From Candidatus Magasanikiibacteriota bacterium (GTDB lineage Bacteria > Patescibacteriota > Patescibacteriia > Magasanikbacterales > 2-02-FULL-50-9b), in assembly GCA_023246755.1 (NCBI GenBank), contig JAHFHU010000005.1, forward strand, positions 1-35,070: a stretch of 35,070 nt of DNA, in the 5' to 3' direction. Under the pieces are notes generated by a model. That model was given only the letters and a program-made list of their open reading frames with translations. It was not told the DNA's origin and did no database searches. Below are positions 26,191 to 27,593 of this stretch, piece by piece. Every line of letters begins with the position of its first letter. The stretch's first letter is position 1. The position numbers and the translations under genes were made by a program.

Positions 26191-26200
26191 AATCTTTAAG

Positions 26201-26218
26201 TGTCAGAGGGCGGATTTG
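26201..26218. repeat. 18-bp direct copy of tRNA(CAU) 3' end
   Basis: TGTCAGAGGGCGGATTTG identical to 26361-26378. Confidence 0.9.
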
Positions 26219-26307
26219 CTCTCCTCGCGAACCGTGTCGCTCGTCGAGGCCTGTCAGTTCACTATGCATGCTGCGCGCGCTCGCATACGTGAACTTGCTT
26301 CAAATCC
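26212..26307. repeat. Structured inverted-repeat element A (three-way junction)
   Basis: GGATTTG/CAAATCC closing stem; CCTCG/CGAGG hairpin; AGTTCACTATGC/GCATA(c)GTGAACT hairpin. Confidence 0.6.
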
Positions 26308-26318
26308 TCTCATCCATT

Positions 26319-26360
26319 GACATAATAAAATCCCCATCGTTAAAGATAGGGATTTTATTA

Positions 26361-26364
<4 letters not shown>
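26319..26364 (-). terminator. 20-bp stem-loop at tRNA(CAU) 3' end, probable transcription terminator
   Basis: GACATAATAAAATCCCCATC-gttaaa-GATAGGGATTTTATTATGTC (one G.U-type pair). Confidence 0.65.
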
Positions 26365-26432
<68 letters not shown>

Positions 26433-26433
26433 A

Positions 26434-26520
26434 TGGTGCCCGGAGAGAGAATCGAACTCTCATGACCTTGCGATCGCAGGATTTTGAGTCCTGTGCGTCT
26501 ACCAATTCCGCCATCCGGGC
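26434..26520 (-). tRNA. tRNA-Leu (CAA), CCA encoded
   Basis: GCCCGGA/TCCGGGC acceptor, loop CTCAAAA, long variable arm, T-arm GAGAG-TTCGATT-CTCTC, ACCA. Confidence 0.94.
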
Positions 26521-26573: not shown

Positions 26574-26716
26574 TATTGTTCCAAATCTCCATGAAGGAGC
26601 GTCTCGGAGGCGATGCGGGCCGGTGTCGTGAATGCACGACGAGCATCGCCGAGAGACAGCGCGATTTTCTGCTGGGAAAATCGACGCGTGCTCCTGAGCG
26701 GAGATTTGGAACAATA
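26574..26716. repeat. Structured inverted-repeat element B (143 bp, perfect 17-bp terminal inverted repeats)
   Basis: TATTGTTCCAAATCTCC ... GGAGATTTGGAACAATA; internal GGAGC/GCTCC, GGCGATGC/GCATCGCC, GTCGTG-aatg-CACGAC, GCGCGATTTTC/GAAAATCG(a)CGC. Confidence 0.85.
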
Positions 26717-26747
26717 ATTGCCCATATGATAGCAATTCTTGACGCCG

Positions 26748-26777
26748 TTGTCAAAGCTGCGATGCACCATGTATAAT
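26748..26777 (+). promoter_or_regulatory. parA promoter
   Basis: TTGTCA (26748-26753) - 18 nt - TATAAT (26772-26777); ATG 9 nt downstream. Confidence 0.75.
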
Positions 26778-26786
26778 GCTTCTACT

Positions 26787-27593
26787 ATGGGTAGAATTGT
26801 TGCGGTGGTTAATCAAAAAGGTGGTGTGGGGAAGACAACGACGGCTGTTAATTTGGCTGCGTATTTGGCTGAAAAAGGAAAAATTGTTTTATTGGTTGAT
26901 GTTGATCCACAAGCAAATGCGACGAGTGGCGTCGGCCATAATTATCGTGAGCTTGCGCATGGGTTGTATGATGCACTTGTTGGCGCAAAAACATTTCGAG
27001 AGATTATTCACTCGACGGTCATTGATGGTTTTCGGATCGCGCCGGCGACGCCCGCGCTTGCGGGTGCGAACGTCGAGCTGGTGAATGTTGAGCGCCGCGA
27101 ATTTCGGTTGCGCGACATGCTTGAAGAAATGGTTCCGTCATACGATTACATCATCATCGATTGTCCGCCTTCGCTTGGTCTACTTACCGTCAACTCGCTC
27201 GTCGCTGCACACGAAGTTTTGATTCCGGTGCAAGCCGAATACTACGCGCTCGAAGGTCTCGGGCAACTTCTTGAGACACTCGATCTTGTGCGTGAAAGTA
27301 TCAACCCACATCTTAAAGTTTTGGGCGCGGTGATTACGATGTTTAGTGGCGCAAATAAATTATCAAAAGATGTCGAACAAGAGTTGCGCAAATTTTTTCC
27401 GAGCAAAATTTTCGATACGATTATTCCTCGCAATGTAAAACTTGCGGAGGCGCCGAGTTTTGGAAAAGTGATTATGCATTACGATAAATTTTCGCGCGGT
27501 GCAACCGCTTACTCATCACTCGCGGATGAAGTTATCGAAATTCATAAAATCGAAGATGCGGCACATCAGCCGGTCAAAGAATTTGTTCTTTAA
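26787..27593 (+). CDS. parA: Chromosome partitioning ATPase ParA/Soj
   Basis: MGRIVAVVNQKGGVGKTTTAVNLAAYLA..., VDVDPQANATSG, YIIIDCPPSLGLLTVNSL. Confidence 0.97.
   Translation: MGRIVAVVNQKGGVGKTTTAVNLAAYLAEKGKIVLLVDVDPQANATSGVGHNYRELAHGLYDALVGAKTFREIIHSTVIDGFRIAPATPALAGANVELVNVERREFRLRDMLEEMVPSYDYIIIDCPPSLGLLTVNSLVAAHEVLIPVQAEYYALEGLGQLLETLDLVRESINPHLKVLGAVITMFSGANKLSKDVEQELRKFFPSKIFDTIIPRNVKLAEAPSFGKVIMHYDKFSRGATAYSSLADEVIEIHKIEDAAHQPVKEFVL

Follow-up and report, generated by a model that had tools for sequence, protein, structure and literature searches.

What is the 143-bp inverted-repeat element that lies beside the partition gene parA, and does it belong to that locus? The element occupies positions 26574–26716 of the window, the 35,070-nucleotide stretch of DNA analysed here, and sits between a tRNA pair and parA. 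ARAGORN places tRNA-Met at 26360–26433 and tRNA-Leu at 26434–26520, both on the minus strand. The parA gene starts with an ATG at 26787, matches Pfam AAA_31 (E 1e-62), has its closest match in the Parcubacteria group (56%) and is followed by parB. The original prediction, made from the letters of this DNA, had offered three proposals: a structured non-coding RNA, a MITE-like element or a DNA cruciform near the partition locus.

The element forms a three-way junction whose closing stem comprises 17 perfectly matched base pairs. All pairings originally claimed for it are present, in a fold with a z score of about −10 on either strand. Folded as RNA, the plus strand has a minimum free energy of −82.4 kcal/mol, compared with −46.0 in shuffles (z −9.6), and the minus strand gives z −10.8; folded as DNA, the element reaches −49.4 (z −9.3). 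The original list of pairings was correct for the helices it gave and had missed both a further helix (GTCTC 26601–26605 with GAGAC 26653–26657) and a GA/GA-type internal loop that separates the outer stem from GGAGC/GCTCC. The element and the promoter-like sites next to it comprise the following parts.

26574–26590, plus strand: 5′ arm of the outer stem, copy-specific, TATTGTTCCAAATCTCC; pairs perfectly with 26700–26716, its letters not common to other copies.
26591–26600, plus strand: GA internal loop (26591–26594), then the 5′ strand of P1b, AGGAGC (26595–26600); P1b covaries across 87 copies.
26601–26605, plus strand: 5′ strand of helix P2, GTCTC, partner of GAGAC at 26653–26657; C26605 is kept in 86 of 87 copies.
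26609–26650, plus strand: branch P3/P4, GGCGATGC/GCATCGCC, with the cap GTCGTG-AATG-CACGAC and an asymmetric internal loop, GGGCCGGT / GA; P3 and P4 covary.
26651–26658, plus strand: GA junction (26651–26652), 3′ strand of P2 (GAGAC) and a joining A; the GA/G at 26651–26653 is kept in 81–86 of 87 copies.
26659–26687, plus strand: branch P5, GCGCGATTTTCT-GCTG-GGAAAATCGACGC; covaries.
26688–26699, plus strand: GT linker, then GCTCCT as the 3′ strand of P1b, then the GA-type internal loop GAGC.
26700–26716, plus strand: 3′ arm of the outer stem, copy-specific, GGAGATTTGGAACAATA; elsewhere in the family, the side that abuts gene or tRNA 3′ ends.
26726–26754, minus strand: promoter-like site TTGACA-17-TATCAT, by consensus match only (11/12).
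26748–26777, plus strand: promoter-like site of parA, TTGTCA-18-TATAAT, downstream of the element, by consensus match only (11/12).

Judged by their letters, the minus-strand site would set a start point at the right edge of the element, which would then be transcribed towards tRNA-Leu, and the plus-strand site is likely to be the parA promoter. Besides the element, only two hairpins in the window score at least 12. One of them is a core-less, near-perfect 21-bp hairpin at the 3′ end of tRNA-Met (26318–26365, TGACATAATAAAATCCCCATC gttaaa GATAGGGATTTTATTATGTCA), whose arms extend into the final bases of the tRNA. Downstream of tRNA-Met, at about 26200–26220, gtgtcagagggcggatttg duplicates the 3′ portion of this tRNA and looks like a truncated copy of it.

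The element is one of many. A search for further copies, which the original prediction had suggested, returned 8 in the 0.92-Mb home genome by BLAST and 14 with R1, a covariance model built from five home-genome copies; with R1, four congeners also yield 11–18 copies, and a second genus of the same family yields 4. Neighbours of the other copies include gyrA, secA, smc, dnaX, an rnj-like gene and several tRNAs. The element is thus only incidentally linked to the partition locus, and copies at so many other genes rule out a role as a partition site. With R2, a broader model, we identified 29 carriers among the 381 class genomes and 34 among the 380 sampled across the phylum, in a patchy distribution that leaves most relatives with none. 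Carrier genomes all measure 0.5–1.4 Mb, a size typical of patescibacteria; together with the parA match, this suggests that they belong to the Patescibacteria. Specificity of R2 was gauged on 24 named loci that had been retrieved by similarity to parA, mostly from unrelated bacteria; one weak match resulted (18.9 bits, E 0.07).

The family also appears to be new to the catalogues. In the window and 20 other loci, Rfam release 15 returned only tRNAs at the gathering threshold, and the best match at a relaxed threshold was P37, with 13.1 of 50 bits; no Rfam family matches the element. A phage or plasmid origin was rejected, since neither blastn nor a pattern scan matched the element to phage and plasmid records. 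Our searches of the open-licence literature, at the level of abstracts, gave no description of such a family. We conclude that the element belongs to a previously unlisted family of dispersed, folded repeats, and we regard both the family and its structure as firmly established.

What the copies have in common is a three-way-junction core of approximately 100 nt, which recurs in many genomes and is present in every copy. Across 87 copies, 94.2% of base-pair cells hold standard pairs, double changes affect 46 of 47 pairs (1374 cells), and covariation reaches a score of 0.817, compared with 0.202 in shuffled and about 0.1 in slid controls; fitting the alignment to the model inflates these covariation figures somewhat, although not to the observed degree. 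Because the same architecture recurs with other letters in 87 related copies, the fold at 26574–26716 lies far beyond chance. Pairing is thus strongly conserved in relatives, the opposite of what the original prediction had named as grounds for abandoning a structured element.

The core also indicates which strand folds. Read in the window's plus orientation, its helices contain many more G.T than A.C pairs (17:1 in P1b, 15:2 in P3 and 26:4 in P5), which points to the plus strand as the functionally folding one. By this compositional argument, the plus strand appears to fold functionally, as RNA or as single-stranded DNA. In the outer arms, symmetric scoring lowers the G.T excess to 38:22 (p 0.05), and to 17:13 at gene ends, and we do not rely on it for the home genus; in other class members, it amounts to 16:1.

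The outer stem behaves differently from the core: its sequence varies from copy to copy while its pairing stays almost perfect. It has a median of 17 pairs, is free of mismatches in 36 of 83 copies and has at most one mismatch in 62 of 83, and the outer ten pairs contain zero conserved letters among the 87 copies. Three same-genome pairs (C44/C61 in genome G011, C82/C89 in G003 and C2/C1 in G010) have cores that are 93–95% identical and carry different arms, each of which pairs; about five bases adjacent to the core are common within the G011 pair and within the G010 pair. Slow compensatory change cannot yield unlike arms on such cores, because the core would have changed too. However alike two cores are, the identity of their arms remains at background, except in G005 and at the G003 loci that adjoin a co-duplicated neighbour, gene 43. 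The distant genomes G640 and G458 likewise have copy-specific arms, of roughly 18–27 bp. In G121, G724 and partly G005, by contrast, arms are alike between copies and resemble ordinary terminal repeats; the G121 copies are 95–98% alike, including imperfect terminal repeats of ~25 bp. These shared arms look like recent expansions of one copy.

Arms also change after insertion. At the tRNA-Leu/rnj site of two congeners, the orthologous copies have cores that are 85% identical and are mutual best matches, and their arms have diverged and are still paired. Upkeep of pairing after insertion is therefore needed.

Copies are placed strictly with respect to transcripts. In the home set, a gene or tRNA 3′ end lies within 20 bp of the element's 3′ side in 38 cases, of its 5′ side in 4 and of both in 4 (p 6e-8); for tRNA 3′ ends within 20 bp, all nine of nine are on the 3′ side. 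The other genomes gave 33 on the 3′ side versus 2 on the 5′ side (p 4e-8), a count for which loci were first oriented and genes were called simply by codon usage. Most copies share a fixed orientation: the element's minus strand runs in the same direction as the upstream gene. Coding sequences end within the 3′ arm in 14 copies and within the 5′ arm in 4, and the 3′ arm often includes the neighbour's stop codon, sometimes with its last codons. At gyrA in G000, the clearest case, one arm consists of the conserved coding end (..CTC ATT TAA), which recurs in inverted form in the far arm, with one bulge and one mismatch. Three gyrA relatives with nearly the same terminal peptide have neither element nor palindrome, and orthologues of secA, smc and dhh that lack the element have no hairpin at the site. 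Element-free relatives of gyrA and rnj have ordinary terminators there. In these comparisons, the native arm was deduced from divergent orthologues rather than near-identical strains.

Unlike arms on near-identical cores, arms that match the local flank and palindrome-free empty sites fit a mobile core with locally made arms. With moderate confidence, we read the family as a dispersed, probably mobile structured repeat, in which the core moves and each site gains its arms through inverted copying of one flank. Mobility of the family is likely; the arm-copying mechanism, the direction of copying and the nature of the intermediate are what we infer from these patterns. The moving unit would be the core alone, ~100 bp. 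On landing, the strand that bears the 3′ end of the gene would be joined to the core, the core would fold back, and synthesis would copy the adjacent flank, leaving an inverted copy of ~15–20 bp of the target on the far side. Template switching, selection or both might later keep the arms paired. We put forward more tentatively a bolder version, in which the branched hairpin core would be a mobile element of a new kind: it would insert next to transcript 3′ ends and use snap-back synthesis to copy its target into its own terminal inverted repeats, so that each insertion acquires different, perfectly matched ends.

The strong orientation bias could also reflect a function in transcripts. The element might be a cis-acting structured RNA, found where transcripts end and in some leaders, whose role is to protect, process or terminate RNA; any closing stem that pairs would do, copies would spread by ordinary duplication, and function would preserve them. 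Such an RNA would account for the strict placing and orientation of copies where genes and tRNAs end, and it is in line with the gyrA copy of G000, where the element takes the place of the terminator, the orthologous retention of the tRNA-Leu/rnj copy in several congeners and the minus-strand promoter-like site at the window copy. However, the strand with the G.T excess is antisense to the upstream gene, cores that are 93–95% identical carry unrelated arms, and presence is patchy, with gene sets that differ between species. We therefore consider such an RNA rather unlikely, while ranking it first among the alternatives. A further explanation keeps the mobile core and has it insert into the loop of an existing intrinsic terminator or hairpin, the old terminator stem becoming the outer stem. 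The location of the copies suits this, and so do the A-rich/T-rich arm pair of the G000 rnj copy, which resembles a split bidirectional terminator, the terminators at the site in gyrA and rnj relatives, and the core-less hairpin at the tRNA-Met 3′ end in the window. Against it, the gene-side arm at gene ends is AT-rich beside the core, with no bias between A and T (A 244, T 217), and the empty sites at secA, smc and dhh are free of hairpins. Arm composition and empty sites rule out such insertion as a general rule and make it an improbable account of the family, but it may explain a few copies, such as that at rnj.

Of the three original proposals, the MITE-like one came closest: the element is a dispersed repeat, but its 17-bp ends are not conserved terminal inverted repeats, as they differ per copy. 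A conventional MITE whose conserved terminal repeats had decayed would accommodate the G121 copies, which are alike up to and including their terminal repeats, and the similar arms of G724 and G005. In the home genus, G458 and G640, however, arms are near-perfect yet unrelated, and decay would abolish pairing, not preserve it. An unsystematic look at the copies read revealed no direct target repeats, and we judge this origin very improbable.

The mobile-core reading can be set against known systems. Integron attC sites lie straight after stop codons, fold on the template strand of the upstream gene and conserve pairing above sequence. Our family resembles them in all three respects, but attC sites have conserved R boxes at their ends and a variable middle, whereas here the middle is conserved and the ends vary; attC sites neighbour cassettes, and this family adjoins housekeeping genes. 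As the outer ten pairs hold no conserved letters, there are no terminal R boxes, and we rejected identity with attC. Identity with intrinsic terminators, in which a U tract follows a GC-rich stem, was likewise rejected: the arms are AT-rich and A/T-symmetric at gene ends, and no terminator-like site was called at the window element. Correia/NEMIS, ERIC and Coxiella MITEs are similar in being ~100–150 bp, intergenic, non-coding, foldable and dispersed. In MITEs, the terminal inverted repeats are conserved and direct target duplications are usual, whereas the ends here differ per copy in most lineages; terminal inverted repeats common to copies were found in G121 and G724 only, and the arms are unrelated in the home genus, G458 and G640. 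REP/BIME repeats, which are mobilised by RAYT/TnpA_REP, are also intergenic, located at gene 3′ ends, formed of strand-specific hairpins and sometimes arranged as inverted pairs. REPs are, however, simple palindromes of 20–40 bp (PMC3733652), whereas this family is ~140 nt long, forms a three-way junction, occurs in 1–18 copies per genome and has copy-specific arms. In further contrast to REP/RAYT systems, the home family lacks a Y1 transposase. Template switching at quasipalindromes homogenises inverted-repeat arms, according to PMC8604942 and PMC7202029, and could both create and maintain the arms seen here, but it is known as a mutational process that has no tie to any repeat family or to insertion where genes end. 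Among bacterial structured dispersed repeats, it is a real possibility that this mode of insertion is new.

The family represents a large, uncatalogued group of structured repeats in bacteria whose genomes are very small. If the mobile-core reading is true, inverted repeats that are copy-specific and derived from the flank would be a new insertion signature, unlike the direct target duplications of transposons, and would offer a way to study mobility or repair in organisms for which cultivation is seldom possible. Should the element instead be a regulatory RNA, it would define a new RNA class marking the 3′ ends of housekeeping genes and tRNAs.

No mobilising enzyme emerged from the domains and flanking genes examined, and the candidates are unevenly distributed. 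The Y1 (HUH) transposase domain PF01797 is absent from the home family, G000–G005 and G010, and present in G011, G121 and G114. The reverse transcriptase domain RVT_1 occurs in G000, G002, G003, G005, G010 and G114 and was not found in G001, G004, G011 and G121, three of these four being less than 90% complete. No transposase was recognised among the flanking genes read. Gene 43, a multi-copy gene for an unknown protein of ~370 aa, adjoins the element in G003 (loci L112, L114, L125 and L127), where the loci have the 5′ arm of the element in common, as if gene and element had been duplicated together. It was rejected as a mobiliser because it has no Pfam match and lies beside elements only in G003.

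Some copies form larger arrangements. In G724, represented by one contig (L348–L379), ten of ten matches lie on the same strand with arms and flanks in common; these look like one recent expansion, and we therefore discarded a replication-strand bias drawn from them. Inverted pairs of elements 35–150 bp apart are found at L083 5103–5485, L096 2998–3410, L106 3057–3419, L115 3035–3364 and L134 2950–3281. Several such pairs separate a tRNA 3′ end from the following gene, and the arrangement at tRNA-Leu(CAG)/rnj-like is kept in three congeners.
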